64,000 bases of DNA. Source: Lenzites betulinus. Its lineage: Eukaryota; Basidiomycota; Agaricomycetes; Polyporales; Polyporaceae. A program made the translations under genes and the position numbers. Of the stretch, positions 9,450-42,837 are shown one piece after another. Each line of letters begins with the position of its first letter. The stretch's first letter is position 1. The stretch lies in the NCBI GenBank assembly GCA_022264855.1, contig JABYQU010000018.1:1-64000 (forward strand). The letters are read 5' to 3'. Below the pieces are notes generated by a model. The model did no database searches. It was given only the letters and a program-made list of their open reading frames with translations, and was not told the DNA's origin.

Positions 9450-9910
9450 CACCAGCTGATGTACTCCTGATGTATCAGGAACCGTTTGTGACTCCGCGCC
9501 GCTTTACATCAGGAACAGGAAGGTTCCTGATGTATCACGGGCGGCCGGGGGCGCCAGCGCTGCCCTCCGGGACCTGCCTAATATGGTAGGCAGGCCCGGG
9601 GGACAGCGCTGGCGCCCCCGGGGGTCTCTAATCTCTTATCTCTCAATAGATAAGGTGTTATCTCATCTCCCCGGGGCTCTCCCGCGCGCGCCTGTGCCTC
9701 TCACGCAGCCACATCCCGATTAGGCAGGTCTGCCTCAGCCACCCACCTCTGCCTGCTTGCACCCCTTCTACCTCGCTCGAATCCCGGCCGATTCGCTTCA
9801 AAATTAGCGCGTTTTACTCGGATTTGATTACGCTACAATCGCGCGCAAACAGAACGGGAATACAGTAAGTACTGACCGCTCTACAGTAGATACAGTAACA
9901 GGGTAAAATA

Positions 9911-9952
9911 GGCGACAAAGAACGGGCGATATCCCGTCCGTTCTTTGTCGCC
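9911..9952. repeat. Hairpin B of the element arm
   Basis: GGCGACAAAGAACGG pairs with CCGTTCTTTGTCGCC around a GCGATATCCCGT centre. It recurs in the other arm (11507-11548) and in the other two elements (for example 26707-26748 and 32036-32077), showing that the hairpins themselves are conserved. Confidence 0.85.
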
Positions 9953-10188
9953 TTGACGCGCAAATGATTTCCCCATGAAGACGGAGCTCAGCGCGTTCGA
10001 ACGAGCTCGCACGCGCGTGATTTGGCCCACGGACGGTGGAGCTGCGCTCCGCCCACCCCGGGCAGAGTGCAGCTCCACCTCCTCTGCACATATATCATTC
10101 GTTTTTGCTCTCAATCGTTATATTCAGTGACTAATACATTCTACCTTACAGTTACAACGTCCTCTGAGCAAACTACAGCCCACAGACA

Positions 10189-10237
10189 CGTTGAGGAGGG
10201 TGGGTAGTAGTCCAGCTACTACCCACCTTCCTCGACG
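10189..10237. repeat. Hairpin D of the element arm
   Basis: GAGGAGGGTGGGTAGTAGT pairs with CTACTACCCACCTTCCTC across a four-base centre. The equivalent hairpin in the other arm lies near 11222-11271, with matches in elements 2 and 3 near 26985, 28015, 32314 and 33350. The paired bases are more constant than the centre. Confidence 0.8.
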
Positions 10238-12009
10238 CATATCTCCGTGACATCGGCGCGGATCGCCACGCAAAAGGCACCGCCAGAAAGCGGCTAAATG
10301 CTGCTTTCTGTCGGTGCCTTTTGCGCGACGATAAGACCGCACAAACCCTCGCAATACGGCATCTTGTGTTCCATACAGTGTAATAACATGTTGTAGCGAT
10401 ATAATCATGTATAACTCTTCAAATGACATTCTGTTTCCTCCAATATATCAGTGTTGGCAATCGCTATGCGTACACAAAGATGTAGGACAATCGGAGCCCG
10501 TTCAGACTTGTAAATCACTTATCAGTGGTCGGAATGTACATCTTTACAACGTGAGATCCGCTCAATCGATTTTGATATAAACTGACACGATTAGCACCTT
10601 ATTGAACCGCTATCTATACACAAAGTTACATGGTAAAAGGACTAGAACTGACGGAGATATCGTGTTTTCAGTGCACACATGCAGGTAGCCGCCCACCGTC
10701 TTAAGACGGTCTCGGGCAGCTTCTGCAAGTCTGTCAGTACTATACATTACTATGCCTCCCTGTAGAATGCTTTGTAGCACACAAATTCGAGTTCTTGGCC
10801 GATTTACATGTTTTTGGGCTTGTCTGAAAGCTATATACGAGTGCTATATAGCTGCTGACTTGATGAATATATGTTTGCTTTCAGTAGCTATGTATCAGCT
10901 AGATTAGTGTGCACCAGCTGCAGTTTTCGAGTTTTCAATGACTTCCTGTGTTTATTGAGGAGAAATGGATCTACATTGTCATATAAGAGGTATATATGGT
11001 ACATTCAGTGTGAGATAACATGTATGCATTGCTCCAGGGTGCCTGTGAAGAGATGGAAGGGGGGGTGAGCAGGTGGGGGGGAGGGAGGAGGAGCAGATAG
11101 TGATAGCGACGCGCTGTGTGGTCGTATCACCGCGAAATAGGTACCGACAGAAAGCAGCATTTAGCCGCTTTCTGGCGGTGCCTTTTGCGTGGCGATCCGC
11201 GCCGATGTCACGGAGATATGCGTCGAGGAAGGTGGGTAGTAGCTGGACTACTACCCACCCTCCTCGACGCGTCTGTGGGCTGTAGTTTGTTCAGAGGACG
11301 TTATAACTGTGGATTAGAATGTATTAGGTACTGAACAAAACATGTGCGAGCAAAAACGAAGGTAATCTGGGTACAAGAAGTGGAGCTGCACTCCCCCCGG
11401 GGTGGGCGGAGCGCAGCTCCACCGTCCGTCGGGCGATTCGGACGTATGTGGGCTCGTTAGAGCGCGCTGGACTCCCTCTTTATGGGAAAGTAATTTGCGC
11501 GCCGAGGCGACAACGAACGGACGAGATATCGCCCGTTCTTTGTCGCCTCCTTTGCACTTTTACTGTATCCTCTGTAGAGCAATCAGTACTTACCCAATTC
11601 TCGTTATGTTTGCGCGCTATTGTAGCGTAGGTACACACGAGTAAAATGCGCTATTTTTGAAGCAAATTGGACGCGATGTGAGCGAGGGAGAGGCGAAGCA
11701 GACAGGCAAGGGAGGGAGGACAAGAGCACACCTGCCTAATCGGGATGTGGCTGCGAGAGAGGCACAGGCGCGCGCGGGAGAGCCCCGGGGAGATGAGATA
11801 ACACCTTATCTATTGAGAGATAAGAGATTAGAGACCCCCGGGGGCGCCAGCGCTGTCCCCCGGGCCTGCCTACCATATTAGGCAGGTCCCGGAGGGCAGC
11901 GTTGGCGCCCCCGGCCGCCCGTGATACATCAGGAACCTTCCTGTTCCTGATGTAAAGCGGCGCGGAGTCCTAAACGGTTCCTGATACATCAGAACTACAA
12001 CAGGGGCTG

Positions 12010-13071
12010 GCAGATGAACGCGCTGCAACGGCCGCGGGAGGACGACACCTCGTGTGCTTGCCAGGCCTTCTGCGGACGCCTCTGACGCTGTTGCACACAG
12101 CCGGGACTCGTTCAACGGGAGGACGGGAGAGCGGCAGAACACGCCATGCGGAGGCGGCGGTGTTTGAGGTCGTACAGGATGCGCAACGGCGGCTAGGCTC
12201 CTGTGTATTGAGAGTCAGTCGGCAGGGCTGCAGGTGGTCTGGGCGCGAACATACGATGACAGTCACACGGGGACGTTGTACAAGGACGTCGCACGCAGGT
12301 CGCGATGGGCGCCAGGGGGGCGAGGGAGCCGCACGATGTGCGCGCGGCTGCCCGAGTGGCGCCTGTATGGACTGCCCGCGCTGGCGTTTCGGTGATGAGT
12401 CTTGCTCGCGGCGCTGCGGGAGCGTTCGGCGTCGTTCGTGTCAGCCTCGGGTAGCTTTCTTGTGCGCCGCCGAGGGCTCGCCGTTTGCAGAGACGACTTG
12501 CAGGCTAGAGCAGTATCCTGATGAGTTCATCAGTACTTGTCCGGATGGCGCGTGGCGCAAAGTGTAAGCGTGACTACGTACCTAGGAGATACTACACATG
12601 AACATCGCTATAACGAACACGCATGGAGGTGACTGTGCACGAGGGGGGCGGTAGTGTTGAACGTTGGTGAGAAGCAAGGACGCGGGCGTCACACGTGGGA
12701 TCCGAGTGAGGTTAAGGGCCGGGCTGCTCGCTGGGGGAGTGGATGTGCACAAGGGTGTAGCGAAGTGTATACTACGAGAGGTGGGTGCGGGGTGGGGAGG
12801 GCGAGCGATGCTCGTAGCTGTACTCGGACGCGTCTACCATAATAACATATCCCACTGTGTATCGCCGGTTAACGCGAGCACGCGCTCGCAGGCGGAGGTC
12901 GTTGGCGGGGGAGGGCAGACGGGGCGCGGCGGGGAGCGCAGTGCGGCGGCGGCGGAGGACAGAGCGCGCGTGGGCGGTCGGTGGCGGAGGGCGCAGGCAG
13001 AGTGCGCAAGGCCGAGCTGGACAGGCGCAGGCGAGAGGGCAGACGCGGGCGTGTGGCGTAAGAGACTTGCT
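12010..13071. other. GC-rich flank with diverged repeat copies
   Basis: No gene is recognised up to the hypothetical gene ending at 13072. The stretch contains the right-hand counterparts of 9180-9400 (at 12010-12200) and of 7960-8545 (at 12365-12868). Order and degree of divergence suggest an older tandem or segmental duplication that element 1 entered later. Confidence 0.45.
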
Positions 13072-13950
13072 TCATACGGGGATGCGGCTGGGAGGCAGTG
13101 GTGCGCGAATGTGCGCATCGGTGGCGTCTGCGAAAGGGTTCGCTGGACGGGCGAGATGCGGGGCTGAGAGGGACTTGGGGAGGGCGGGGCGCGCGTTCTC
13201 CTGTCCGTCGGCGTTGGCGTCATTTGAGAGAAGAGCGGGGAGGGGTGTGCATGCGTCGTCGCAATCAGGGACGATGGTGGCGGCGGAGCTGCCGCGGGAG
13301 TCCATGGAAAGCGAGCGGGTGATCGTGTGCTCGTCGTCGTCTTCATCGACGGGCGAGGGCATGGGCGTGAGATCGGGCGAGCTCGCGCTCACGTGGGCGA
13401 AGGAGAGGGAGAGCGGCGCGGGCGGGAAGACGCAGGCAGAGCCTGAGCGACGGAGGGAGGCAGGGTTGAGGCGGCTGGACGAGCCGGGCTGCTCGGCATG
13501 CTGCAGGACATTAGCAGGGAACTAGCACGATAAAGTGACGACATACCCATTGCGCAAGCTCCTCGCGAGCCCCTGGCGTATCCCACGAGAGCCCGTCAAG
13601 GTCCGCGAACTCAGTCTTCACGGACTGGACCGATTCCTCCAATATGCGCATCTCCTCCTGCGAAACGAGCGCATGAGCGTACTGCAGCGTGAACAAGAGT
13701 GAGAACGCACTGCTGTGATGCGGAGAGCGTCACGCTCCTCGGCCTTGAGCTCGGCCTTGGCGACGGCCTGACAGATGAGGCGCTGCTGGGCCTTGTCGCT
13801 GAGGGCCTGCACGGGCGGGCGCGGGCGCGTGGGGCTGGTGCGGACGGCGACGGAGTGGGAGGCGAGGGCGATGGCGAGCGGAATTGGGAGCGAGTCGGCC
13901 GTGGCGAGCGAGCACAGGCCAGCAGTAGTGTGTGTGGAGGAGTGTAGTAG
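13072..13950 (-). CDS. Hypothetical fungal protein, 5' end unclear
   Basis: Three minus-strand exons join in frame with canonical introns. The first (open from about 13950 or further) reads SDKAQQRLICQAVAKAELKA. After an intron at about 13663-13715 comes EEMRILEESVQSVKTEFADL. After a second intron of about 46 bp comes a Ser/Pro-rich tail with SASSPDLTPMPSPVDEDDDE, ending RIPV-stop at 13072. The middle part is predicted helical. I do not recognise the family. No ATG is found in the first exon's frame before the GC hairpin array at 14105, so the start may be in a missed exon or lost. Confidence 0.5.
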
Positions 13951-14104
13951 CAGCGAGCGTGGAGGCAGCGAGCGTGGAGGTGGTGGTAGCAGAGAGAGCG
14001 AGAGAGCGCGGTCAGCCACAGTACGGCGCGTGTTGACGCGTCTGTGACCTGTGTGACGGACGCGTTGAGTCCAGGCGGGCGTCTGCACGCGTCTATCTCC
14101 CTCG

Positions 14105-14290
14105 CACCCGCGGCCGCGGGCACTCACCTGAATGTTAAACAGCCACCCGCGGCCGCGCACCTGCGCGGCCGCGGGCACTCGCCCGAGTGTCAACCAGCCA
14201 CCCGCGGCCGCGCACCTGCGCGGCCGCGGGCACTCGCCCGAGTGTCAACCAGCCACCCGCGGCCGCGCAGGTGCGCGGCCGCGGGTCACG
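14105..14290. repeat. GC hairpin array 3 (four units)
   Basis: One half-unit and three full units have a roughly 56-bp period, each with arms CCGCGGCCGCGCA/TGCGCGGCCGCGG. The centre is CACCTG in the second and third units but CAGGTG in the last, which is the inverted form of an otherwise symmetrical hairpin. The array sits between the hypothetical gene and the WBP1 fragment. Confidence 0.88.
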
Positions 14291-14493
14291 TATGGCTGTA
14301 TCGCGGATGGACCGCGGATGCGGGGGCCCTCCGTCGCTGCGACGATTAACGTGATCCCAACCTTACCTCACATGTAATCTAGTGGCACTTAATGCCAATA
14401 TGCATGTCGAGCCCACTTCACACATCACTCCAAGGTCGCTTGCAAGGCTCAGCGGAGAAAGTATGTCAAATAATTAAGCAAAATACACGGGCT

Positions 14494-15430
14494 CTACTCC
14501 GTCTTCGAGCCCCTCGCTTTCCTCGGCTCGCGCTCGTCGCCCGCAAGCCACAGCGCGACGAAGATCCCGAATGCAGCGCTCGTAGAGAAAGCGCCCGCAT
14601 AGTACGGCCACACTGCGCTGAGGAAGCACGGGTACCCGTCGTGCCGCGGGGGGACGACCGGGACGACGGTCGAGCTCTCAAGGAACGTCAGCCTGAAACG
14701 GGGCACGGTCAGCATGACGCGCAAGATAAGTGGAGAAAGAGGGAAGAGCGCGTACCCCTTGCGCTTATGGTTAATCACGAACTGGAAGACGCCATGCCGG
14801 TCCGGGACACGGAAGGTGACGGAGTACTTGCCGGGCTCGCCTGCGATGGGCGGGAGCGTGGTGCGTATGTGCGGGTCGAGCATGGTGAACTCGAGCTGCA
14901 AATCCTTCAGGCCGGAGTACACTTCCCAGGCCTCAAGCTCGGGGTTATACTTGGAGATGCACGCGGTGTAGGTCTAGGGGAAGCATACACGTAAGAAGGC
15001 ACTGTAGAAGTGGAAGCACTAAGCATACGTACCACACGGTCGTTGGTCGTGTACATCTCGAGGGGGCTAGTCTCGTTCACGCGGTGGTGCTCAACACTGT
15101 CAATGCGGAGGACTTCGGATTCCAGGAATGTCCAGGCCGCGACGTCACGCGCGAACTGCCTGTTGCCTGACTGTTTGCCCCTGGATTCATCTTCAACACC
15201 CGCGGGGAGTGAACACAACAATGGCGACTCACTTAGCGACCTCCTTGTTGAAGAATTTGTCAGTGAACATATCAACGCCGCCGATCCAGGTGGTGCGTGC
15301 GTTCGTGGGGGTCTGGAAACCGGTTACCAGGCTCAACTGGCTGCCTGCCCAAAGGCCCTCACCGCCCTTCTCTGCAGCCTCAACCAAAACGTCAGCGCTG
15401 GAGTCGCTGTCTGCGCCAATCTCCCAGCGG
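14494..15430 (-). pseudogene. WBP1: OST48/WBP1 oligosaccharyltransferase subunit, C-terminal half only
   Basis: WBP1 (DDOST/OST48) is an ER-membrane subunit of the oligosaccharyltransferase that N-glycosylates proteins. The visible minus-strand exons are about 15430-15233 (GGEGLWAGSQLSLVTGFQT, WIGGVDMFTDKFFNK), 15180-15033 (RQFARDVAAWTFLESEVLRI), 14973-14756 (KYSVTFRVPDRHGVFQFVIN) and 14692-14494. The last carries the C-terminal membrane segment YYAGAFSTSAAFGIFVALWL and ends at TAG. Introns are canonical and the frame is intact throughout. The N-terminal half expected upstream, including the GATase-like luminal domain, is not found between 15430 and 18500, where the sequence is GC-rich and unrelated. 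It is therefore a 5'-truncated copy. An intact gene is expected elsewhere, since the subunit is essential in yeast. Confidence 0.8.
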
Positions 15431-17944: not shown

Positions 17945-18480
17945 GCCACACGAGCTCGCGCAGGTGCGCGGCCTCGGGCACTCACTCGCGTGTTAAATGC
18001 TCACCCGCGGCCGCGCAGGTGCGCGGCCGCGGCGACTCAACTGAGTGTTAACCGCTCACCCGCGGCCGCGCAGGTGCGCGGCCGCGGCAACTCGTGTGTG
18101 TGTTACGTGCATACCCGCGGTCGCGCAGGTGCGCGGCCGCGGCGACTCAACTAAGTGTTAACCGCTCACCCGCGGCCGCGCACCTGCGCGGCCGCGGCAA
18201 CTCATGTGTGTGTGTTACATACCCACCCGCGGCTGCGCAAGTGCGCGGCCGCGGCGACTCAACTGAGTGTTAATCGCTCACCCGCGGCCGCGCACCTGCG
18301 CGACCGCGGTGACTCATATGGGTGTTACGTGCATACCCGCAGTCGCGCAGGTGCGCGGCCTCGGCCACTCGTCTGCGTGTTACATGCCCACCCGAGGCCG
18401 CGCAGGTGCACGGCCGCGGCCACTTGCCTAACTGTTAAATGCCCACCCCATCTTGCACATGTGCATGGCCTTGGACCAGG
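17945..18480. repeat. GC hairpin array 4 (about ten units)
   Basis: Ten units have a 53-59 bp period, the last one or two decayed. The stems are the same CCGCGGCCGCGCA/TGCGCGGCCGCGG. The centres vary: about six read CAGGTG, two read CACCTG (near 18182 and 18292), one CAAGTG, and the last CATGTG. Spacers carry GACTCAACTGAGTGTTAACC-like inverted repeats. Confidence 0.88.
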
Positions 18481-21129: not shown

Positions 21130-21624
21130 CACCAGCTGATGTACTCCTGATGTATCAGGAACCGTTTGGGACTCCGCGCCGCTTTACATCAGGAACAGGA
21201 AGCGTTCCTGATGTATCACGGGCGGCCGGGAGCGCCAGCGCTGCCCTCCGGGACCTGCCTAATATGGTAGGCAGGCCCGGGGGACAGTGCTGGCGCCCCC
21301 GGGAGCCTTTAATCTCTTATCTAACGTAGATAATAGCCATATCTAATCTCCCCGGTACTCTTTTTTTTTTTTTTTTTTTTTTTTTTTGGTGGAGCGCGTC
21401 TTGAGCCTGCTTCCCCAGTGAGCTCGTCAGAGCGTGTGGTGAGTTAGCGGGCGCGCTTGGTGACTTCTAGGGAGAAACAAGAAACCCCAGCAATCACTTC
21501 AGTAGTGAGAGTTTAGATGTGCATTAAGGTCGCGCTATCACCGTACCGCGAGGAAATGCCGTTTACGCACTGAGTGTGGGACTCCAAGGTCATCGGGAGC
21601 TTCATCTGAGGGCCCCAGGCGCCC

Positions 21625-23862
21625 TCATCCATTCCCTCTCTTAATACCCACTAAAACCCCGCTGTCCGTCACCCATCTCGGGGGTAGGTTCCTCTCCTCT
21701 TCCAGTAGGGGGGACCAGGTCCCTTCTACCAGCCGTATGTACCGTTTACGTTTTTTGCCTAGCAGTAGGGTTGCGACGCGCCGATCGAGGGTAAGCCGTC
21801 TGTTTATTTCCGCAAACCAGCGATTGTGTACCTCTCTTCTAGTGAATTCAGCGCCATCGTTTGCTATTACCCGCTCGCATCGGAGCTTCCATATCAGCCG
21901 GGCTGACTCGACTGCCAGTATTGCCCAGCGATTTTCCAGTGCAGACACGCGTCGGCCTCCATTCGCCTTCCTCCCAGTGCAGGCCGCGCCCATTATGGTC
22001 CCCCATGATGGGTCACGCGGTAGGCCTCCCGCCATTGTCCAGGCCTCACGCAGCAGTTTCCATATGATTTCGCGTCCTTTCGCTGTACAGGTGAACAATA
22101 TGTGTTCCATGGTTTCGGTTTGACCGCATATCTTACAGACTGCTCGTTCTTTCAGCTCGTCAGACATCGAGGGGCGCAGCCAGTGGGTCCCGACCATGTA
22201 TGCGTCATGCAAGGTCATCCACATCCATTGCCTCGCTTCCCGGGTGATCGCGCTACTGGCAAGCGACTTCCAGAGTGTTTCCGGGGCAATGTGGACATCA
22301 AGTTTGTCTTTCAGATCCCGTATCACTTGATCCACCCTTTCCTTGGTGCGTCGCCTCGGTTCTATCTCCACAGATTTCCGTGCTCGTATCGCTCTATAAG
22401 CTAATTTTTGCGTTATTTTACTCAGTTTCGCCCCAGTAACCCGGAGTTGCCGAGGTACGGTAACATCCACAGGGTCTGGGGCGGGTTTGCGAGCTCCGCG
22501 GCCGGCTAGGACATCCGCTCGCTCATTTCCTGGGTGGCTGTTGTGGCCCTTGACCCATTGGAACGCAGAGTGCGCTTTCCGTTCGAGAATCGCAGCCCTG
22601 ATTGCTCTGGTAAGGTCGGGGTTCTTGTGGTGTATAAATCCTTCGTCCTCATTCTTATGGAACCGCTTTGTTACAGCTTCCAGCGTCGTTTTCGAATCCG
22701 TGATATGGAGGAGCGGCTTCGCGGGGTCTGCCACGCGTGTTGCTATGAGAGTCGCCACCGCCTCTCCTGTTTGGTTTGACTGCTCCATAGTGGGGGGAAG
22801 GCGGATGCTTTTATTCTGTGGGTGGTTTTCGGCAAAGAATACCCCTGCCCCTGCCTTAGCTGACGCTGTGCCATTTTGCAGACATGATCCATCGGTGGCC
22901 ACCTCGGTTATGCCTGCGGCGTTACCTGTTGCCAGGTTAGGGAGTTCATTACATACTTCTTCCTGTCCTGTGAAGATTCTCAGTGCATCGGCGAGCGTCC
23001 CCGTTGTGGTTATGCGCCGATCACATATTTCGATGTTTTCGTGCGCCGAGAATAGCCGGTGTGCTTCTTGGTGGGACTCTTCTTCATAATCTTCCGGGCG
23101 CTCGCCTCTTGGATCCCACTTTGGCGGGAGCGTGTTTAAGAATGCGATTGCTCGTGCATAGCACTCTGCCGGGGCTGCGCACCCGAGTTCCAGTCGTAGG
23201 TAGGTGCAGCGGTCACATTGGCATGCTCTTGAGAGCTCATTGTGCCCCGGTTCCGACGCGCCCATAACGAACTTTTCAAAGTCACCGACTGTGACCAGTA
23301 AGTGGGTGTTCTTGAGGCACGCCGTCGCTGCCGATCGTCCTCCAAGTGTTCTGATTTTTGCTCTATCGGCCTGTGCATGGTCCCACATTGGCATCGCCCT
23401 GATGATGGATCTCTCAGGGGCGAGTGCTTCTAATCTCAATCCATACTTCTTTGCTATTGCTGACATGTGTTTCAGGTCGTCTGGGAGGTGCGTCTTCGTT
23501 GGTTTCCAGTTTTGGAGAAATGGGTTGATGCGCAAGTAATCTTCTGATGGCACACAGTTCCTCGCTACGCACTTGGCGAATAAGTCGTCTACTATGAACG
23601 TCCACAGGGGGCGATCTGGCCCCATCTGCAGGTATGTTTTTAACCACATTACATCGATCGCTTCGTTGCGCGATGCTAGGTCCAGCATCCCCAGCCCGCC
23701 CTGTTCTATCGGGAGGAGGAGGCAATCGAACTGTACTGGTGGTGAGTGCCTGTCGTTCCAGACATATTCGCGGATGAGTTTATTCAGTCTTATCATTACT
23801 GATTTCGGCATTCTCTGCACGTCTGTTAGGAATTGGGACATCCCTCCAACCATCATTTGCAC
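21625..23862 (-). CDS. LINE ORF2, part 2: RT thumb, RNase H, zinc knuckle
   Basis: This is in the same frame as part 1, separated only by the TAG at 23902. It continues with the RT connection region (REYVWNDRHSPPVQFDCL). It then has an RNase H domain (VATDGSCLQNG for the first Asp, QTGEAVATLIA for Glu, LLHITDSKTTLEAV for the next Asp, WVKGHNSHPGNERAD). A C-terminal zinc knuckle CKICGQTETMEHILFTC follows. RNase H in a LINE points to a Tad/I-like clade. Total ORF2 would be about 1596 codons. Confidence 0.88.
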   Translation of the reverse strand: MQMMVGGMSQFLTDVQRMPKSVMIRLNKLIREYVWNDRHSPPVQFDCLLLPIEQGGLGMLDLASRNEAIDVMWLKTYLQMGPDRPLWTFIVDDLFAKCVARNCVPSEDYLRINPFLQNWKPTKTHLPDDLKHMSAIAKKYGLRLEALAPERSIIRAMPMWDHAQADRAKIRTLGGRSAATACLKNTHLLVTVGDFEKFVMGASEPGHNELSRACQCDRCTYLRLELGCAAPAECYARAIAFLNTLPPKWDPRGERPEDYEEESHQEAHRLFSAHENIEICDRRITTTGTLADALRIFTGQEEVCNELPNLATGNAAGITEVATDGSCLQNGTASAKAGAGVFFAENHPQNKSIRLPPTMEQSNQTGEAVATLIATRVADPAKPLLHITDSKTTLEAVTKRFHKNEDEGFIHHKNPDLTRAIRAAILERKAHSAFQWVKGHNSHPGNERADVLAGRGARKPAPDPVDVTVPRQLRVTGAKLSKITQKLAYRAIRARKSVEIEPRRRTKERVDQVIRDLKDKLDVHIAPETLWKSLASSAITREARQWMWMTLHDAYMVGTHWLRPSMSDELKERAVCKICGQTETMEHILFTCTAKGREIIWKLLREAWTMAGGLPRDPSWGTIMGAACTGRKANGGRRVSALENRWAILAVESARLIWKLRCERVIANDGAEFTRREVHNRWFAEINRRLTLDRRVATLLLGKKRKRYIRLVEGTWSPLLEEERNLPPRWVTDSGVLVGIKRGNG

Positions 23863-23901
23863 TATGTGCCTCTTACCGTTCAGGGTCGCAGTCGCGTTCT
23901 T

Positions 23902-26412
23902 CTAGTGATTGATTACAGTAAGGATTTTCTCGATTTTTGGTGCCCATATCTCGGACTCATTTACTCCATTTCCTAGCCATGCACCCAGTATTCGTACTGG
24001 TTCACCATCGGCTGCCAAGTGCACGTTTTCTGGGTAATTTCCCCACCGGCCCGTTGTTCGGTAAGTGTTTTCGACATTTGTGCGATACTCCGGGGTTCCA
24101 ACCGGGATAATTTCGGTTTTCTTTAAGTTAAAGCGTGCCTTCGCAGCTGTACACCAGGTGTCAAGGACATATTGTAGCTCAGCAAAGTCATCTGTTGCCG
24201 CCAGATAGACGGTCATGTCGTCAGCGAACAAGGTTGCCTTTAGCGCTTCGCCACAACGGGGTACGCTTAGGCCTTGAATATTTGAGTTCCGTATCATCGC
24301 AGATAGTGGTTCGATCGCCAAATCGAACAGGAGACACGAGAGCGGGTCCCCTTGTCGGACTCCCCGCTTAACAGCATAGGGGGTGCTCGCTACTCCGTTT
24401 ATCATTACTGACGTCATTGCTCTGTCGTAGAGTGATTTCACAGTGTTTATGAATGACTGGGGGATCCCAAATCGTCCCAGGACCCGCCACAGGTAGTCAT
24501 GCGCCACTTTATCGTAAGCTTTTTCTTGGTCGAGTGCGACAATTGTTCCATTGACATCATTTGCTTCTGCCCAGTGTATCATCAGCTTAGCAAGCTGAGT
24601 GTGGTTATGAAGACGCCGCCCCGGGACGAACCCAGCTTGGGCAGGGTGTATTAGGTCAGGGGCTACGGCCGCTAGTCGAATGGAGAGGATTTTACTCAGC
24701 AGCTTGTAATCCGTGTTCAGGAGCGTAATTGGTCTGTAGTTCGCGATTTTTGTGCGCTCACCCTTTTCCTTATAGATCGGGGCCATCCATCCATCTGCAA
24801 ACGGGATGCCAGGTGCCACTCCGTGGATTTGAACGTCTCGGTAAGCACATGTGAGTATTTTTATTACATCAAAGGCTGGTCGACCTTCGTGCCTCTTATC
24901 TTCAGTATACCTCGCATGCATGGTCTTCCAGACCTCATATTGTATGCCGTCTAGTCCAGCAGCGGTTGCGGACTTGGAGAATCGGAGAGCAAGCTCACAA
25001 TCCTCGTACGTTATTGAGGCTCCCAGCTCTGCCATTTGGTCGTCATTTAACAGGCGGTCAATACTCGCCAGTGCCTCCTGGATGCATTCTTCTCGTTGTT
25101 GCGGGAACGGTAGGCCCTCCTCATCCCATTGTAAGTTTTCATGGTGCTCTCGCGCCATCTCCGCCATTTTAAGTGCGTCAGACTCATAGAGCCTCGGACG
25201 CTCTGCGGCCCCCGATTCGTTCTCCCGTTGGAACGCGTGAATCAGCTCGCGTGGTGCGGACGGCTTATTTAAAGTCATCCAATACCTTGTTGGGCGTTCG
25301 CCATCAAGCCTGTGCCGTGCCCTCCCGTTCTGCTGCCGGAGGTGAATCTGTCTGACTTTTAGGTCAACAATCTGCTTATTTAGGGCAACCATGTTTGCAG
25401 CTCGCGTTTCTTCGGACTCTGTTATTTCGCGTTCCCGCGCGAGCCGCGCCTTCTCTTGCTCCAGCTGGCGGATTTCGGCAAGGAGCTTAGGTACCGTTTC
25501 CTTCTCTCGCGCGCGTGCGCTGCTCATCCACTCCTTCTTTAGGTTGTACAGGACTGTCTGCGGGTTATGGGCGTCCGTCCGCTCCGTCCCGTTACACAGT
25601 CCTTCAAGTTGAGCTATCGCCCTCAAGCCTGCGTCCTTCATGTTTTTTGTTAATTTTTTGTCTCTCAGGAGGTGCAATGGAAACACCGGGCGTCCCGGCC
25701 CTACCCGCGGGGCGTCGGTCATCGTTACCTGCACTGTTACGAGGTTGTGGTCCGTGCGGACACCCGGCGCGATAATATCCCATTCACGCGCTCGTGCGAA
25801 TACATCTGGGGTGACATATATTCTATCCAGCCGGGAGCACGTTGCTTCATTTCCCGAGCCACGGTGGAACGTATAACTACGTGTCGCAGGATGGGTCATT
25901 CGCCAACCGTCTGCTATCATAAGGCCTAACGCTGATTTGAGGTCATCTAGATCTCCTAGCGACGCATCTGGGTCTGCGACTGGAAGGCGGTCGATCACAT
26001 CCTCTGTGTTGTTGAAGTCTCCAGCAATCAGGTGCGGTTTTTGCACCGTCGGATGTGTTTCGTAATATTCACGGACTTTCTTGAAAAAATCTCGCCTCTC
26101 GTCAACACCGTCTGACGTCGGCGCGTATATGCAGAGCACCCGAAATGGGTCGTTTCCATGCGCGCATAGGGACACTTGCAGAGCCCGCCCAGGCACAATT
26201 ACGGTTGGGACAGCCCCATTCGCGTTCACTTGGGACTTATTTAGAACAATCGCTACGCCTTCTTTGCGCGTCGGCGCATCTGGGTGTGCAGAGTATAGGA
26301 TTTTAATACGTCCTTTAAACATGCGTTTTATGTCATCTTTGCGCTGTTCAGTCAGATGCGTCTCCTGTAGTAACAGTATGCCAAGGCCAGTTTTCTTAAT
26401 CATTTGGTACAT
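23902..26412 (-). CDS. LINE ORF2, part 1: AP endonuclease + reverse transcriptase
   Basis: This reads as an APE-type endonuclease (LLLQETHL, GDFNNTEDVIDR, LDRIYVTPD, DHNLVTV) followed by reverse transcriptase (VALDQEKAYDKVAHDYLW, GVRQGDPLSCLLFDLAIEPL, catalytic FADD near 24225). The endonuclease nicks target DNA and the RT primes from the nick. Residues 1 to about 220 form the endonuclease and about 400-780 the RT. The frame is open to a TAG at 23902-23904. The next codon onward continues the same protein in the same frame, so the stop is a single nonsense change, probably at a former Trp codon. Confidence 0.9.
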   Translation of the reverse strand: MYQMIKKTGLGILLLQETHLTEQRKDDIKRMFKGRIKILYSAHPDAPTRKEGVAIVLNKSQVNANGAVPTVIVPGRALQVSLCAHGNDPFRVLCIYAPTSDGVDERRDFFKKVREYYETHPTVQKPHLIAGDFNNTEDVIDRLPVADPDASLGDLDDLKSALGLMIADGWRMTHPATRSYTFHRGSGNEATCSRLDRIYVTPDVFARAREWDIIAPGVRTDHNLVTVQVTMTDAPRVGPGRPVFPLHLLRDKKLTKNMKDAGLRAIAQLEGLCNGTERTDAHNPQTVLYNLKKEWMSSARAREKETVPKLLAEIRQLEQEKARLAREREITESEETRAANMVALNKQIVDLKVRQIHLRQQNGRARHRLDGERPTRYWMTLNKPSAPRELIHAFQRENESGAAERPRLYESDALKMAEMAREHHENLQWDEEGLPFPQQREECIQEALASIDRLLNDDQMAELGASITYEDCELALRFSKSATAAGLDGIQYEVWKTMHARYTEDKRHEGRPAFDVIKILTCAYRDVQIHGVAPGIPFADGWMAPIYKEKGERTKIANYRPITLLNTDYKLLSKILSIRLAAVAPDLIHPAQAGFVPGRRLHNHTQLAKLMIHWAEANDVNGTIVALDQEKAYDKVAHDYLWRVLGRFGIPQSFINTVKSLYDRAMTSVMINGVASTPYAVKRGVRQGDPLSCLLFDLAIEPLSAMIRNSNIQGLSVPRCGEALKATLFADDMTVYLAATDDFAELQYVLDTWCTAAKARFNLKKTEIIPVGTPEYRTNVENTYRTTGRWGNYPENVHLAADGEPVRILGAWLGNGVNESEIWAPKIEKILTVINH

Positions 26413-28798
26413 CGTTTTCCATTTATTATCTGGATTTTCAGGCCTAAGCGACCCGAAGCCGTTCTCCCCGGTACTTTCCCGCGCGCCTGTGCCTCCCTCG
26501 CAGCCACATCCCGATTAGGCAGGTCTGCCTCAGCCAGCCACCCCTGCCTGCTTCCTCCCCCTCTCCCTCGCTCAGTTCGTGGCCGATTCGCTTCAAAGAT
26601 AGCGCGTTTTACTCTGGTGTACATACGCTACAATCGCGCGCAAACGGAACGGAAATCCGGTAAGTACTAACCGCGCTACACTACATACAGTAACAGGGTA
26701 AGAAAGGCGACAAAGAACGGGCGATATCTCGTCCGTTCCTTGTCGCCTCGGCGCGCAAAGTACTTTCCCATGACGGGGGAGTCCAGCGCGTTCGAACGAG
26801 CCGTCATGCGCGCGAATCGGCCGACGGACGGTGGAGCTGCGCTCCGCCCACCTTGGGGGGAGTGCAGCTCCAGCTCTTGTGCTCATATTTCGTTCGATTT
26901 TGCTCGCATCTGTGTCCTTCAGTTACTAATACACTATATGCTACAGGAAAGACGTTTTACAATCAACACAGGGGCCAGAAACCCGTCGAGGAGGGTGGGT
27001 AGTAGTGAGACTACTACCCACCTTCCTCGACGCATAGCTCTGCCAGTTCTGCGCGTATCGCCGCGCAGAGGGCACCGTCAGATCGCGGCGCAACACGGCG
27101 TTCCAACGGTGCCCTTTTCGCGGCGATCCGACGGCAGAAACCCTCGCAATAGGCTATCCTGTGTTTTATACATTGTAACCACATGTTTTAGCAACAGATT
27201 CATGTAAAAAGCTTCAAATCACATTTCGTTTTCTTCCAAATACGAGTCTAGCCCATCGCTATGCGTGCACCAAAGTATGAGACAATTGGTGACCGTTCAG
27301 GTGAGTGATCTGTTTATCTGTGTCCAAGATGTACCCCTTTGCTGCGCACGATCCGCCCTGCCGATTGTTATAAAAGCTGGCACGATTAATACGCCGTGTG
27401 AATGCTACCTGTATACAAAATTGCAAGAGAAACGGATGGCAACGGACGGAGATATTCCGTTATCAGTGCACAGATGCAGGTAGCCGCCCACCGTCTTAAG
27501 ACGGTCTCGGGCAGCTTCTGCAAGTTTGTAAGTACTGTACATTACTATACATCACTGTAGGACACTTTGTAGCACATTGACATGAGTTCTTCGCCAATTT
27601 ACCTGTTTCTGGGCTTGTTTGAAAGCTGTATACGTTAGCTATCGATTTATACACTCCACAGATGTATTGGAGGTCTACCTAGCTTTGTAGGGACGGAATG
27701 AGTGTGCAAAACTCGCTGTTTTGCTCAGTTTTGCTCAGTCTACTATTTATGCAGCACATAGGAGTACAAATCATTATTGAAAAGGTATATACACTACATA
27801 AGATGTTACTAGACATGTACATAGCATTCCAGAGTCCCTGTGGAGAGATAGAAGGGGTGGTGAGCAGCTGGAGGGGGAGGAGGAGCACATGTAGATAGCG
27901 ACGCGCTACATGGTCGTATCGTTGCGCAAAGGGTACCGAAAGAAAGCTGCATTCAGCCGCTTTCTGGCGGTGCCTTTATCGCGGCGATACGATCAGGAAC
28001 GGTAGCGCTGTGCGTCGAGGAAGGTGGGTAGTAGTCTCACTACTACCCACCCTCCTCGACGTGTCTTTGGGCTGTGGTTCGTTCAGATAACGTTCTACCT
28101 GTGGAGTAGAGTGTATTAGTGAATGAGTAAAGCAAGTACGAGCCAAAACGAATGAAATACAAGCACAGGAGGAGGAGCTGCACTCCCCCCGGGGTGGGCG
28201 GAGCGCAGCTCCACCGTCCGTCGGCCGATTCGCGCGCATGACGGCTCGTTCGAACGCGCTGGACTCCCCCGTCATGGGAAAGTACTTTGCGCGCCGAGGC
28301 GACAAAGAACGGACGAGATATCGCCCGTTCTTTGTCGCCTCTTTTACCCTTTTACTGTATGCACTGTAGCACGATCGGTACTTACCGGATTCCCGCTCCG
28401 TCTGCGCGCGATTGTAGCCTGGGCTCTCCCGAGTAAGACGCGCTAAATTTGAAGCGAATCGGAGCAGAAGCGAGCGAGGTAGAGGCGGAACAAGCAGGGA
28501 GGGGAGGGTGGCTAAGGCAGGCTTGCCTAATTGGGAAGTGGCTGAGAGGGAGGCAGAGGCGCGCGGGGGAAAGCAGGCAGATGTGATAAGGACGCAATCT
28601 ACAATAGATAACAGATTAGAGACTCCCGGGGGCGCCAGCGCTGTCCCCCGGGCCTGCCTACCATATTAGGCAGGTCCCGGAGGGCAGCGCTGGCGCTCCC
28701 GGCCGCCCGTGATACATTAGGAACGCTTCCTGTTCCTGATGTAAAGCGGCGCGGAGTCCTAAACGGTTCCTGATACATCAGAACTACAACAGGGGCTG

Positions 28799-30770
28799 CT
28801 TTGCGCACGCTTTGCTCGGCTTGGGACGGACGCCTTTGGTTGGCTTCTGAAAATACATGACAACATCGGCCTTGACCGCCTGTATACAGAGTTAGAGACA
28901 ACCGCAACAGGTACTTGCATGTGGGACTTACACTGCTCGACGCGAGGATAATCACGGGATTCGAGACTTCACTATAGAGTTTCCAGAAGGCCTGACGGGC
29001 CTCTACAGTACAGTTGCCGGCGTAGGGTAGGACACTGAAGGACCCGCGCTTGAGGTAGCGGTGGAGTTCCATCATCCATTGGTGCATTAGCCCGGGGGGA
29101 GCGACGAGGACGTGGGTGTCCGCCGTGAGCTGGCTCTTCCCCCACGTATGGCCGACTGGAAAAGCGATCAGCAAAGCTGGTGCGATGTATAGAAAATGAA
29201 CTTACCGAATCGATCGGTATGCTTGCCGTACTGCGCGAAGTGCAGCCGTTGATATTCATACATGGCGATTGCGCCCACCGCCTGCATAGTCTTCCCAACA
29301 CCGACTTCATCCATGATCAGGAGGTTCTTCTTATCGAACAGGTTGTCGATGATCTTGGTGATTCCTACCATTTGATGCCACATCGGTTTGAGTGGCACCG
29401 CGGCGTCGGAGCGTAACACCGCCTGGCCTTCCTCTGACCAGGCGTCCAGCTCGCCGATGGGATCCTGCAATAGATTGAAAAAAGGGAGGTCCGAGTTGGG
29501 AAGTCCGAGCGCGCGCGCGAGTTCGGCGTACGAGAGCTTGGAATACTCCTCGACACCTTCGGTCCACTTCCCGATGTCGCAAGCGATGCGCCATACAGGC
29601 TGCTCCTCGTCGTGCTCGTGCGCTTTGATGAGATCCATCACTACTCCGAGGACCTGGGCGCACTCTGCCTTCGTCGCGAGCGTAGCCAGTGCAGCCGACA
29701 ACGCGGCAGGCAGCTCTGACCAACTTATGTCAGAGAGGCTAAGAACATCAAGCTCGACTTACTTTTGGACGCGGTTGTAGGCACTCCCTGTAGCTGATCC
29801 CTGACGCCCTCCAGAGTCTCCTGGGCCTCTGCATGTTCGTCCCCGAGGTGATCGGTCTTCCACTTTCCGAGACGGTTCAACCACAGTTCGAGCGCGCGAA
29901 GATAGCGCAAACCCGCGGCCGCGGTAGGCACCGGCAGTTTTTCAAATGCTGCGAGGGCCGCGTTAATTGAGGCCAGACTACCTATAATCATGAAAAAGGA
30001 TGAGTCTGCTCACCACTGCGTTCGCGCTCCATGTTCTCTTGAGCGCGCTTCAGGCCGGCGCGCTCGCGGGCTAGCTTGTTCCGCATCCGCTTCCAATAAC
30101 CGGCGCAGAGTGTGCGCACGAATCGCGTCGCCGGTTCCTTGATCATGAGGCTGTTTTGATAAGCGTCATCACCGAAAAACCGCACCGCGATTTCGCGGTA
30201 CAGCGCAACGACCGGGGATAGATCCAGAGGATACAGCTTTGAGCGTGGTCAGCGTGATACATAAAACAGGGTGTGAAATTCGCGTACTTTGGCCATGCCA
30301 TGCTCCGCCATCGTGAAGACGTCGATGTCATTCGCCTTGAGTATACCGTCGAGCACCTCGTTGATCCCCCAGTTCGGCCACTGCTCCGCGAGGTAAGCAA
30401 TCATGGCATCCCGCCCAGCCGTGTTGTTATGGGCACCACGACGTTGACAGTATGCAGCGCGATCCTTCGCGCTTGAGAGAGCATAGTAGCCCTGGGCGAA
30501 TGCCTTGATCTTCTCCACTTTGTCCTGGGGTAACCCGGTGTTCGCGGACGTCGCAGAGAGGGCCCACGGCGGAGTGGTATCGGCGACGCTTTCGCGCCAC
30601 TCGTCCCAACAGAACGGTGCCGGAATCTCCGTGTCTGTAGCAGCGGCCATGTGCAAGAAAGCTTCGAAGTACTGGTCGGTAGGCATCCTGTTTGTGAGCA
30701 CGAGGACAACAGAGAGAGTACGAAAGAGCTCACACTCTAAACTCTCTCGAGTCCCACTTTTATACTCCAT
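28799..30770 (-). pseudogene. SNF2-type helicase, N-terminal part of a split gene
   Basis: Minus-strand exons start with ATG at 30770 or, more likely, near 30687 (MPTDQYFEAFLHMAAATD). A long N-terminal region follows with YWKRMRNKLARERAGLKRAQ and WLNRLGKWKTDHLGDEHAEA. The ATPase domain begins with PLKPMWHQMVGITKIIDNLF and the Walker-type MDEVGVGKTMQAVG (near 29300), then VLVAPPGLMHQWMMELHRYL. The part ends inside an exon at KPSKACAK, where foldback element 2 begins. Introns are short and canonical. Reading continues correctly on the other side of the insertion (21129). The N-terminal domain is not one I recognise. Confidence 0.75.
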
Positions 30771-31572
30771 TGAGTCCCATGCATCGAATCGCGATGCGAT
30801 ATTCTGTGCGAAAATGTGCGATCGTTAGCAACATATTTTTTGGTGGAACACCTCAGCCCGCCGCGATCGCCCGCGCCATCACACGTCGATCGTGCTGCAC
30901 TGACGCCACAAGATAGGAGCCCGGATTACCGGAAAGACATACGTTTGGGCATGATGCTTAACGCAGCAGACGCGGCTCGGTAATTCAGTGTACGCGGCTT
31001 GTTAAAGTACTCAGGAGGCGCAAATACTGAACGACACCAACTTCTAAATTGGGCGAGTTGATTACAGCTGTTCTCTAATCGATAGGCTCCTGGGAAAAAT
31101 AATTGCGGACAGCGGTTTCGGGCAGCGACGGCGGGGAGGATGCGGGTGTGCATGCCGAGGGCGCGTAGCTCTTCGCGCTGCCCGCTACCTGTCAAACCGA
31201 CTGTTACCGCATCACGCGAAGCGTCGCCGCCCCGTCTGGGCTTGAACGCCTCTGTGTGTGTTTTTTCACGGGGGCCTATCGATCTGAGAACAGCTGTAAT
31301 TAGGCCGGGCGGCTCGCGCGAGTGAACCCACGTGGCTGTGCGAAACCTTGAAACCTTAAGTCCTACCGACGCGTCCCCGTAACTATTATCCTCCCCTTGC
31401 ACCCTCCAACCCGTCTCCTCCGTCGTCAATAGATCTACCCTACCTGGGCGCTCAGCAGCAACCAGTACGTCCCCTGGGAGACTCCGAGCGGGTATACGGT
31501 CAGACGGTGGTCGTAAGGTTAGCCCGGCAAGTCCTACAGATACGCAAGAGTACTTACCGCAATGTCGGGTTC
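30771..31572. other. Spacer with one uncertain minus-strand ORF
   Basis: Upstream region of the helicase gene, so its promoter should lie near 30780-30850. A 167-codon minus-strand frame at 30926-31429 (ends MPKRMSFR) is open and ATG-started but shows no domain I know and no supporting introns. I treat it as unproven. The flank at 31566-31572 is one copy of the element 3 target duplication. Confidence 0.35.
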
Positions 31573-34129
31573 CAGCCCCTGTTGTAGTTCTGATGTATCA
31601 GGAACCGTTTAGGACTCCGCGCCGCTTTACATCAGGAACAGGAAGTGTTCCTGATGTATCATGGGCGGCCGGGAGCGCCAGCGCTGCCCTCCGGGACCTG
31701 CCTAATATGGTAGGCAGGCCCGGGGGACAGCGCTGGCGCCCCCGGGGGCCTCTAATCTCTTATCTCTCAATAGATTATGTCTTATCTCATCTCCCTGGGG
31801 CTTTCCCGCACGCGCCTGTGCCTCCCTCGCAGCCACATCCCGATTAGGCAGGTGCACTCTTGTCCTCCCTCCCCTGCCTACCTGCTTCGCCCCTCCCTCG
31901 CTCAATTCTGGCCCGATTCGCTTCAAAAATGGCGCATATTTCTCGGATGTAATCACGCTACAATCGCGCGCAAACAGAATGGGAATTGGGTAAGTACTGA
32001 CTTTGCTACAGTAGATACAGTGAAAGTGCAGAAGAGGCGACAAAGAACGGGCGATATCTCGTCCGTTCCTTGTCGCCTCGGCGCGCAAAGTACTTTCCCA
32101 TTACGAGGGAATATAGTGCATTCGAACGTGCCGTCATGCGCGCGAATCGGCCGACGGACGGTGGAGCTGCGCTCCGCCCACCCCGGGGGGAGTGCAGCTC
32201 CACTTCCTGTGCTCATTTCTTGTTCCTCTTTGCTCGTATTTATTCATTTTTGCTACTAATACATTGTAGAACACAGGCAGTACGTTTTACGAACACAATA
32301 CGGCCCAGAATCACGTCGAGGAGGGTGGGTAGTAGTGAGATACTACCCACCTTCCTCGACACATAACACTACCGTTTCGGCGCGTATCGCCGCGCAAAAG
32401 GCAACGCCAGAAAGCTGCATTCAGCCGCTTTCTGTCGTTGCCTTTTGCGCGGCGATACGACCACGTAGCGTTTCGCTATCCCTCTCTGCTCCTCCTCCCC
32501 CCTCCCCAGCTGCTCAGCCCCCTTCCATCTCTTCACAGGTACTCTATAACACTGCATACATGTTACTTGATACCCAATGTACCATAGCTACCTCATATAT
32601 AACAATGTAGATCCATCTGTCTTCAACAAACACAGGAAGTCATTAAAAACTCGAAAACTGCGACTGCTGCATATCAAATTAGCTGATACATAGCTACTGA
32701 AGGCACAAATATATCCATAAAGTGGATGGATAGATAGCACCTGTATACAGCTTTCAGACGAGCCCAAGAACATGTAAATTGGTGGAGAACTCGGATTACT
32801 GTCCTACAAAGTGTTTTACAGGGTCTGTATGTACTGTGCTGTACATACAGACTTGCTGAAGCCGCCCGAGACCGTCTTAAGACGGTGGGCGGCTACCTGC
32901 ATGTCTACAGTAATAACGCGATATCTACGTCAGTTCTCGTCCGTTTCCTCTGTAATTTCGTGTGCTGATAGCGAGTTTATACCCCATCAATCGTGCGAGT
33001 TTCTATTGCAATCGGTTCGGCCGATCGCATGGGGCAAGGATGGACATTGTTAGAGCAGATAGGTAGATTATACATTCAAACGGCGTGCGATTGCCCTGTA
33101 CGTTACTCTTCACATACAACAAGCCTATATTCATACATGGAAAAAGTCAGAACGAGATTATATGGAGTATGTGTGCAGCTATGGTCGAAATGGTTTGCTA
33201 CACTGAAAGAGGCACCAATTATCGTACAGGGAGGGTTCCTGCGGTCGGATCGTGGTGCGAAAGGCGCGGACAGAACGCTGAAAGACACCGCGTTCTGTCG
33301 GTGCCTTCCGCGCGGCGATACACGCAGAGATGGTGGAGATATGCGCCATGGAAGGTAGGTAGTAGGGGGACTACTACCTACCCTCCTTGACACATTCTGT
33401 GGCTGTCGTTTGTTTGTAGAACGTATTTCCTGTGGCTTACAGTGTATTAGTAACTAAACAAAACAAGTCCGAGCAAAAACGAACGAAATATCAGCGCAGG
33501 AAGTGGAGCTGCACTCCCCCCGGGGTGGGCGGAGCGCAGCTCCACCGTCCGTCGGCCGTTCCGCGCGCATGCGGGCTCGTTCGAACGGGACTGATGCCCT
33601 CTTGATGGGGAAGCAATTCGCGCACTGGGGCGACAAGGAACGGACGAGATATAGTCCGTTCTTTGTCGCCTCTTTTACCCTGTTACTGTATCCACTGTAG
33701 CACGGTCAGTACTTACCGTATTCCCGTTCCGTTTGCGCGCGATTGTAGCGTAGGCTCACCCGAGTAAAGTGCGCTAATTTTGAAGCGAATCGGCCGCGAA
33801 ACGAGCGAGGGAGAGGTGGAGGAAGCAGCAGGGGGGTGTGGCTGAGGGCAGACTTGCCTAATTGGGATGTGGCTAAGAGGGAGACAGAGGCGCGCGCGGG
33901 AAAGCAGGCAGATGTGATAAGGACACAATCTACAATAGATAAGAGATAAGAGGCCCCCGGGGGTGCCAGCACTGTCCCCCGGGCCTGCCTACCATATTAG
34001 GCAGGTCCCGGAGGGCAGCGCTGGCGCTCCCGGCCGCCCGTGATACATCAGGAACGCTTCCTGTTCCTGATGTAAAGCGGCGCGGAGTCCCAAACGGTTC
34101 CTGATACATCAGGAGTACATCAGCTGGTG
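31573..34129 (-). mobile_element. Foldback hairpin element 3 (2557 bp, inverted)
   Basis: This copy is in opposite orientation to the first two: the left end starts CAGCCCCTGTTGTAG and the right end finishes CAGCTGGTG. It is flanked by the 7-bp repeat CGGGTTC (31566-31572 and 34130-34136). Left arm is to about 32470, centre about 32470-33240 with CCGTCTTAAGACGG near 32872, right arm to 34129. All five hairpins per arm are present, e.g. 32036-32077 and 33628-33670. No transposase frame. Arms differ from those of elements 1 and 2 by scattered substitutions, so the copies are related but not brand new. Confidence 0.88.
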
Positions 34130-39728: not shown

Positions 39729-39734
39729 GCTCCC

Positions 39735-41837: not shown

Positions 41838-41843
41838 GCTTCT

Positions 41844-42827: not shown

Positions 42828-42837
42828 GTTCTATTCG

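Follow-up and report, generated by a model that had tools for sequence, protein, structure and literature searches.

Gene-less palindromic satellite elements of Lenzites betulinus and their likely KDZ transposon partners

Three satellite copies in the window

Three copies of a gene-less, palindrome-rich element of about 2.56 kb lie within the first 64,000 nucleotides of Lenzites betulinus contig JABYQU010000018.1 (assembly GCA_022264855.1), the whole stretch analysed here and referred to as the window. We describe these elements and their relatives across the genome, collectively called satellites, together with large elements that encode a KDZ transposase and carry similar ends. The copies in the window, each flanked by a target site duplication (TSD), and the long interspersed nuclear element (LINE) nested in the second are as follows.

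9450..12009, plus strand: copy 1, complete non-coding element of 2,560 bp, TSD GCAGATG (7 bp)
21130..21361, plus strand: copy 2, left piece, broken by the nested LINE; TSD of the element CTTTGCGC (8 bp)
21361..26462, minus strand: nested LINE (non-LTR, that is, lacking long terminal repeats) within copy 2, with open reading frames of 758 and 870 amino acids
26463..28798, plus strand: copy 2, right piece
31573..34129, minus strand: copy 3, complete, in reverse orientation, 2,557 bp, TSD GAACCCG (7 bp, in the orientation of copy 1)

The pieces of copy 2 add up to 2,568 bp, or about 2,555 bp without the 12–13-bp flanking duplication CTCCCCGGTACT of the LINE itself, which carries a T-run at 21361-21387. 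An earlier note on this DNA, made from the letters alone, had placed three copies of about 2.56 kb here, the second at 2,553 bp, and had found no encoded transposase; both statements are borne out, the longest stop-to-stop frame fully within copy 1 in the open-frame listing being 107 amino acids. The inverted arms of about 900 bp that it described, each with five mirrored hairpins, were likewise recovered, and the hairpins of copies 1 and 3 exceed chance. The arms of the window copies are about 890–900 bp long. Copies 1 and 3 have six hairpins per arm, five main ones and a smaller subterminal one, each mirrored in the opposite arm, and a conserved palindrome at the centre. The parts of copy 1 are these.

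9450..9545, plus strand: type-1 terminal segment, starting CACCAGCTGATG; presumed transposase-recognition end
11914..12009, minus strand: right terminal segment, CAGCCCCTGTTG on the minus strand
9505..9534: H0, subterminal palindrome, mirror at 11925-11954
9545..9621: H1, 77-bp hairpin, mirror at 11838-11914
9910..9953: H2, hairpin GGCGACAAAGAACGGGCGATA, mirror at 11504-11549
10035..10079: H3, hairpin, mirror at 11380-11422
10189..10237: H4, hairpin, mirror at 11218-11272
10262..10332: H5, innermost hairpin, mirror at 11123-11199
10684..10717: conserved palindrome block at the centre, CCGTCTTAAGACGG, located near the midpoint of the 33 elements scanned, 4 of them with a variant

Copy number and sister families

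Copy 1 was searched against the whole genome (37.4 Mb in 108 contigs), yielding at least 111 matching pieces with 40 of 66 candidates scored. Because genome DNA searches score the best candidates only, copy counts are lower bounds throughout. Family A comprises at least 21 end-to-end copies, copy 2 included, and partial pieces besides; the full copies measure 2,548–2,568 bp, a range in which the length of copy 2 still counts the bases duplicated by its LINE. Further copies in the assembly, on which the reality of a family had been made to depend, are therefore plentiful. All families together hold at least 47 end-to-end copies, every one between 2,391 and 2,568 bp. Miniature inverted-repeat transposable elements are typically below about 800 bp, a limit that the satellites exceed.

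Thirty-four elements were measured by script (21 of family A and 13 others), and 13 more were taken from match coordinates alone. A scan of the genome for the end pattern found 129 places (65 forward, 64 reverse), against 59 for a reversed control; the sister families were drawn from 100 of the 129 places and from two more DNA searches.

L075-L078: sister elements of 2,453–2,457 bp
L079 and L080: 2,473 and 2,486 bp
L083: 2,448 bp
L084/L091: 2,534–2,535 bp
L088: 2,461 bp
L090: 2,547 bp
L092: 2,396 bp
L093: 2,468 bp
End-to-end by match coordinates: C19:533429, C90:8388, C39:373247, C55:143812, C19:234026, C28:318218, C24:192697, C3:5779, C50:19206, C76:488847, C81:47697, C1:1020487, C18:30754

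Between families, alignable stretches longer than 100 bp are mostly 64–74% identical. One element cut by a contig end (L027) is excluded from the counts of TSDs, arm pairs, mosaics and hairpins given below, and the partial elements L028-L038 from those of TSDs. Many satellite copies lie within tens of kilobases of contig ends or are cut by them (C50, C64, C99, C65, C82, C106, C20, C19, C30), which may reflect subtelomeric clustering or breaks of the assembly at repeats. Open frames of the flanking DNA cross the satellite ends at L083, L084 and L087, suggesting insertion into genes or other transposons.

Termini and target site duplications

Family A copies start with CACCAGCTG and end with CAGGGGCTG in 20 of 21 cases, in keeping with the fixed ends described earlier; in the remaining copy, L022, both ends are of the CACCAGCTG type and a TSD is lacking. 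Both the satellites and the large elements described below have 5'-CA..TG-3' termini. A duplication of 7–8 bp had been reported for the window copies, whose TSDs are indeed 7, 8 and 7 bp, and across all 34 measured satellites the TSD is 7 bp in 27, 8 bp in two and absent in five. The corresponding numbers are 17, two and two for the 21 copies of family A, and ten of 7 bp with three lacking a TSD for the 13 sister-family elements. L014 and L015 show no difference over their 2,560 bp but have different TSDs; the pairs L017/L018 and L025/L026 are 99.8% alike, again with TSDs that differ within each pair. These copies point to recent movement.

Two end types occur in family A, type 1 in 13 copies and type 2 in eight, and the left and right types agree in all 21. 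The end cassettes are about 93–98% identical within a type and 68–70% between types, and the next 85 bp inside the cassette are 94% alike between types. From this matching we infer that it is the specificity of the transposase which the end cassettes mirror. At C17:365077-365267 (L036, L056) some 190 bp of a type-1 end, 84–87% alike, are followed by unrelated sequence; this is either a copy that has been cut short or one terminus of a larger, so far unrecognised element. Among the sister elements, L080 has a left end of the L079 type, a right end of the L084 type and no TSD, and the centres of L079 and L080 are reverse complements of one another; L080 looks like a recombinant of two families.

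Large KDZ elements with satellite-like ends

Satellite-like ends bound four elements of 12.6–14.4 kb that carry CxC2 and KDZ domains, and a single end of the same kind marks a fifth; the best end matches, this last one included, are 71–158 bp long at 93–99% identity.

C22:87335-101694: partner element, ends 14.4 kb apart, found by the end-pattern scan
C87:1688-15875 and C87:20955-35024: two partner elements with 71-bp ends, 14.2 and 14.1 kb apart, found by the search with L088
C79:19016-31641: partner element with 100-bp ends, 12.6 kb apart, found by the search with L092
C33, end at 58056: fifth element, one end only, with a KDZ frame beginning about 2.4 kb inside

The ends of the C22 element match the four type-2 family-A copies compared with it over 92–94 bp at 88–98%, both C87 elements match L088 over 71 bp at 93%, the C79 element matches L092 over 100 bp at 96%, and the terminal 158 bp at the C33 end are 98–99% identical to L084/L091. 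The type-2, L088, L092 and L084 end types are thus each common to an element that encodes a KDZ transposase. For the C33 element the opposite end was not found, and none of the 22 CxC2 matches in the genome lies beside its known end, which is accompanied by KDZ only.

A profile search for the KDZ transposase family PF18758 gave 77 matches in the genome, among them C87:4159-4726, C87:31986-32553, C79:28941-29721 and C22:98344-99131 within the bounded partners. CxC2 (PF18803, 22 genome matches) stands directly upstream of KDZ in reading direction in all four (C87:5224-5556, C87:31156-31488, C79:28338-28670 and C22:97744-98076). Most KDZ matches are located outside the partner elements, indicating many KDZ genes without known satellite ends of this kind. 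The large elements have 7-bp TSDs in the three cases checked (GAATCGG and ACACTGC for C87, CACAAGA for C22). The TET/JBP profile PF12851 found no match in the genome and was likewise silent in control genomes.

Two Kyakuja families of Laccaria have 7-bp TSDs, CA..TG termini and no terminal inverted repeats (TIRs), and 8-bp TSDs are given for Zisupton and a Dileera family (Kojima 2025, PMC12730594; here and below, statements on published systems refer to the accessible parts of the sources). Judged by TSD and termini, the 7-bp duplications and CA..TG ends of the satellites fit the Kyakuja subgroup of KDZ. For the window copies, the KDZ assignment follows from a body common with the type-2 family-A copies, whose ends are 88–98% like those of the C22 KDZ element, and from the same TSD length together with a weaker match to the C87 ends. 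We conclude that the satellites are most likely non-autonomous KDZ elements of Kyakuja type, and that their mobilisation in trans by a KDZ transposase is very likely.

Several observations sit uneasily with this conclusion. The type-1 end of copy 1, used as the one query, has 34 matches, of which 31 are satellites or satellite pieces; the other three are C17:365077 at 85% and the two C87 KDZ elements at 76%. The right ends of some copies match a KDZ element at 78–80%, so that the type-1 ends of the window copies have no close KDZ match in the assembly (76%; 78–80% at best). The C22 element has arms of its own, about 900 bp long and 89% alike over 912 aligned columns, where the two Laccaria Kyakuja families are said to lack TIRs (PMC12730594); we take "no TIRs" as a description of those two families, not a definition of Kyakuja. 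Moreover, the C22 arms hold no hairpin string: the left kilobase has a single hairpin of score 10 and the right arm has none (shuffles gave 0–2 and 0–1), so the C22 transposase is not obviously in need of hairpins.

Origin of the satellites as internal-deletion remnants of the C22 element was considered and rejected. Its first 1,000 bp as query gave 31 matches, two being its own ends and the other 29 all falling within query positions 1–94, so that similarity outside the element stops within its terminal 94 bp. Whole-satellite queries match the C87 and C79 elements at the ends only, a weaker observation in that the best 40 candidates were scored.

Palindromes of the satellite arms

Copies 1 and 3 contain 21 hairpins of score 14 or more in 5.1 kb, against 13 in the 51.2 kb of the window outside the elements and the LINE. 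In 15 elements examined with shuffled controls, one to eight hairpins each reached the threshold of that test, and five Markov-shuffled versions of each element gave none. Folded as single-stranded DNA, the left arm of copy 1 has a z of −15.2, with none of 20 shuffles as stable.

The palindromes hold their order and position across families, sister families having hairpins of different letters at corresponding positions. The central block of copy 1 carries GTCTTAAGAC, a motif shared by all 21 scanned copies of family A, in one of them with a base exchanged; it appears as CTTAAG in eight of 12 other elements and as a GTCTTAC variant in L084, L091, L092 and L090. The centre of H2 reads GATATC or GATAGC in family A, L075-L077, L088, L093, L083, L092 and L090, within several different stems. 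H5 is present in 41 of 46 arms of 23 elements across families. The number of hairpins varies between families, from 3 to 13 in ten elements at the threshold of that comparison, and not every hairpin occurs in every family.

Covariation was assessed for H5 across families on 19 sequences less than 85% alike, with the 3' halves permuted 2,000 times and standard pairs counted. Pairing was found in 87.4% of cells (permuted mean 77.4%, maximum 82.0%) and double change in 73 cells (mean 28.3, maximum 52), with the caveat that such permutations model relatedness incompletely. A repeat restricted to Watson-Crick pairs (20 sequences, 1,000 permutations) gave 80.5% against a maximum of 73.8%, and 72 cells against 51. 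Within family A (26 non-redundant of 43 arms), H5 has ten double-change cells against a shuffle maximum of seven, while H1 and H4 have two each, equal to their shuffle maximum. Two terminal stretches have 27 (maximum 21) and 18 (maximum 13) double-change cells, those of the second being due at least partly to the existence of two end types. The innermost hairpin H5 keeps its pairing through compensatory changes, the kind of stem compensation that the earlier note had raised.

Other results weigh the other way. The positions of H5 with a double change number 16, not beyond permutation (mean 10.5, maximum 17), and again 16 against a maximum of 18 in the Watson-Crick-only repeat. Across families, H4 (seven sequences) is just at the permutation limit and H2 (four non-redundant sequences) is not beyond it; H1 is represented there by one non-redundant sequence. 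In family A most stems barely vary, and H2 and H3 show no double change. The earlier suggestion that the hairpins are functional rather than accidental divides: their conserved order and the compensatory changes in H5 speak for their being non-accidental, and a function remains putative.

Maintenance of the palindromes

Satellite copies are strong mosaics. For 12 non-redundant family-A copies with 485 informative sites, the pairwise homoplasy index (PHI) is 0.368, below the lowest value reached in 200 permutations (0.515), adjacent sites agreeing far more than remote ones. L020 and L023, for instance, are 96–100% identical over the first 1.7 kb, 80–84% over 2.0–2.4 kb and 100% at the end. The two arms of one copy are on average 85.1% identical, and between copies the values are 83.4% for left against left, 85.8% for right against right and 81.8% for left against right. 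The opposite arm of the same copy is the nearest relative for five of 43 arms, indicating that arm-to-arm conversion is occasional and not general; nearly identical arm pairs occur in L088 (99.5%), L022 (95.3%) and L011 (93.1%).

Length constancy was considered as proof of constraint and is kept as an observation only, the contrast between complete and decayed copies being modest. MAFFT alignments have 3–13 indel events per 366–609 substitutions (35 listed pairs below 90% identity), and in the 12 non-redundant copies together at least 1,809 substitutions are accompanied by 37 gap intervals. By blastn, which opens gaps more readily than MAFFT, the mean is 16.8 gap openings per 424 mismatches (231 pairs of complete copies and L027). 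The decayed pieces L029 and L034, about half the length, give 20–22 per 327–375 and 12–26 per 330–358 by the same method, and the partial L028, L030, L031 and L033 give 3–17 per 147–236, with no clear difference from complete copies.

Selection on one RNA strand should leave more G.T than A.C mismatches in the stems of one arm and, in the other arm read in mirror image, more A.C than G.T. Mismatches were counted in H1–H5 over 33 elements and 66 arms, in which 36, 58, 53, 42 and 61 hairpins, respectively, were found. The left arm has 182 G.T and 149 A.C, the right arm 152 G.T and 142 A.C, and there is no flip (the cells are not independent). H5 has more A.C than G.T in the right arm; H3 and H4 have more G.T than A.C in both arms, a pattern left without explanation that we count against the mechanism proposed below. 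The lack of a single-strand RNA signature weakly favours DNA palindromes over RNA.

The strongest alternative to a selective use of the palindromes, one that we rate slightly above that use and at somewhat less than an even chance, is that they are a mutational by-product of quasi-palindrome correction and arm-to-arm conversion and confer no benefit. The strong mosaicism, the nearly identical arms of L088, L022 and L011 and the missing arm-to-arm flip all agree with it. Pure correction is not expected to fix positions, however, and several palindromes and the central one keep their order and position across families that are mostly 64–74% identical; within family A, H1 is about 95% conserved, against 70–75% in some spacers.

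That the palindromes act as RNA, as long hairpin transcripts that feed or jam a host small-RNA pathway, we regard as unlikely. The very stable folds would suit such a role, as would matches of H1 to microRNA precursors in Rfam, the best of which scores 37.1 bits where the gathering score is 60. All 13 matches listed from Rfam up to E 0.5 fall short of their gathering scores, and the G.U excess that should flip between arms is missing, within the limits of the non-independent counts.

Identity of the mobilising transposase

Mobilisation by hAT elements, proposed in the earlier note, is highly improbable. In its favour are the CA..TG-like ends and a TSD close to 8 bp; hAT dimerisation domains do occur in the genome (PF05699, 11 matches), and rusts are reported to have hAT lineages whose TSD is 7 bp long (PMC12730594). 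None of the 11 matches falls inside any of the four large elements with satellite-like ends on both sides, which hold KDZ and CxC2 instead, and an 8-bp TSD is seen in only two of 34 satellites. The whole-genome PF05699 search and the 7-bp TSDs largely refute hAT as partner: the proposal of a non-autonomous foldback element moved in trans stands, its hAT source does not, and the hAT gene with shared ends that would have supplied the transposase was not found among those 11 matches in the four bounded elements. Least credible of all is a Galileo-like foldback element of the P superfamily, to which the long arms, the foldback form and the 7-bp TSDs, the length known for Galileo, would correspond: the domains inside the large elements that share these ends are KDZ and CxC2, though no search aimed at P-family transposases was made.

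Proposed mechanism

We propose a mechanism in three steps. In the first, a CxC2- and KDZ-containing transposase from the 12.6–14.4-kb elements would recognise the terminal 70–160 bp that the satellites share with them and move the 2.4–2.57-kb satellites, leaving a 7-bp, sometimes 8-bp, duplication; the support for this step is strong. The second concerns the interior, which is a chassis without genes: its palindromes are lined up in two mirrored arms on either side of a central one. This body is found with several kinds of end cassette, left and right agreeing in type, which suggests that cassettes were swapped and that lineages appear to have switched transposase while keeping the body. Taken together, these two steps, a KDZ satellite with a palindrome chassis and exchanged ends, we hold to be highly probable.

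In the third step, the palindromes might be kept as double-stranded DNA by folding-templated correction and by conversion between arms and copies, and might also be selected as structural or protein-binding sites that aid the mobilisation or copying of the satellites. We offer this maintenance at the DNA level with selective use tentatively, as possible more than probable. It is with similar reserve that we suggest a wider picture: the satellites may form a gene-less hyperparasite lineage with a heritable body plan, whose chassis swaps end cassettes to follow KDZ transposases, and in which the palindrome array of nearly fixed length would be a working device (for instance an array for docking or synapsis, or a means of raising copy number) and not debris.

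KDZ transposons are large and little studied. A family of satellites that lack genes, keep one body plan, have ends paired by type and find several KDZ partners in one genome would allow recognition by KDZ transposases to be tested, and the same system would allow a test of whether DNA palindrome arrays aid the spread of transposons. The satellites also offer a well-delimited example of evolution by module exchange among non-coding elements.

Other features of the window and of similar arrays

A GC-rich, itself palindromic 55-bp minisatellite, CGCGGCCGCG, occurs at four places in the window, and three adjoining frames resemble the gag-pol region of a long terminal repeat retrotransposon. The window also holds a gene for ETF-QO; its best named relatives, in Trametes and Postia, are 74–75% identical, which suggests an Agaricomycete source, probably one of the Polyporales.

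6647-6772, 8567-8765, 14109-14285 and 17957-18448: 55-bp minisatellite
36981-42830, minus strand: frames of 917, 702 and 328 amino acids

Matches of 130 bp to the satellite body lie next to 55-bp minisatellites at L039-L044; on C75, C48, C89 and C57 (L040-L044), palindromic arrays with the same 55-bp spacing adjoin these partial body matches.

Comparison with known systems

Foldback (FB) elements have arms built of tandemly repeated subunits. The satellites have the long inverted arms of FB elements, and none of the 23 tandem-repeat rows of the window is an arm repeat of the three copies; only one row touches an element at all, and it is the T-run at 21361 that belongs to the nested LINE. Their arms are distinct palindromes, unlike the tandem subunits of FB elements. 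Drosophila FB, Galileo and Tm1 resemble them in long inverted arms able to fold back, as far as the accessible accounts go; the arms of Galileo are internally repetitive, whereas here strings of different palindromes are found and the partner is KDZ. Maize Ds1 we take to be about 400 bp long, Ac-dependent and presumably without a palindrome string. Like the satellites, it is non-autonomous and shares little homology (PMC3260210).

The closest likeness is to Kyakuja, in the 7-bp TSDs, the CA..TG termini and the KDZ transposase of the large partners; the families of Kojima bear TET, whereas long TIRs and a gene-less palindrome-string satellite are found here (PMC12730594). Cryptococcus KDZ1-KDZ3 are KDZ elements of about 9–11 kb with TIRs whose movement has been shown, differing in CxC1 in place of CxC2, in TIRs of 139–241 bp and in TSDs of 8 bp (KDZ1) and 4–8 bp (KDZ2, KDZ3); in the accessible part of that study, clearly non-autonomous copies were not seen mobilised (PMC12810828). 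In Marasmius oreades, another mushroom, the repeat library contains KDZ, and non-autonomous DNA elements are classed by the TIRs and TSDs they have in common with autonomous families; they are mostly below 1,000 bp, and the accessible text mentions no palindrome strings (PMC8290104). Kyakuja and Zisupton families are listed for Agaricus (PMC7473861), and giant KDZ elements are known from Ectocarpus (PMC12477816).

No description of satellites of this kind was found in the open-licence literature, a body of work that does not cover Repbase or most subscription papers. A non-autonomous DNA transposon is a known kind of element; a palindrome chassis with exchanged ends around KDZ transposases appears to be new.

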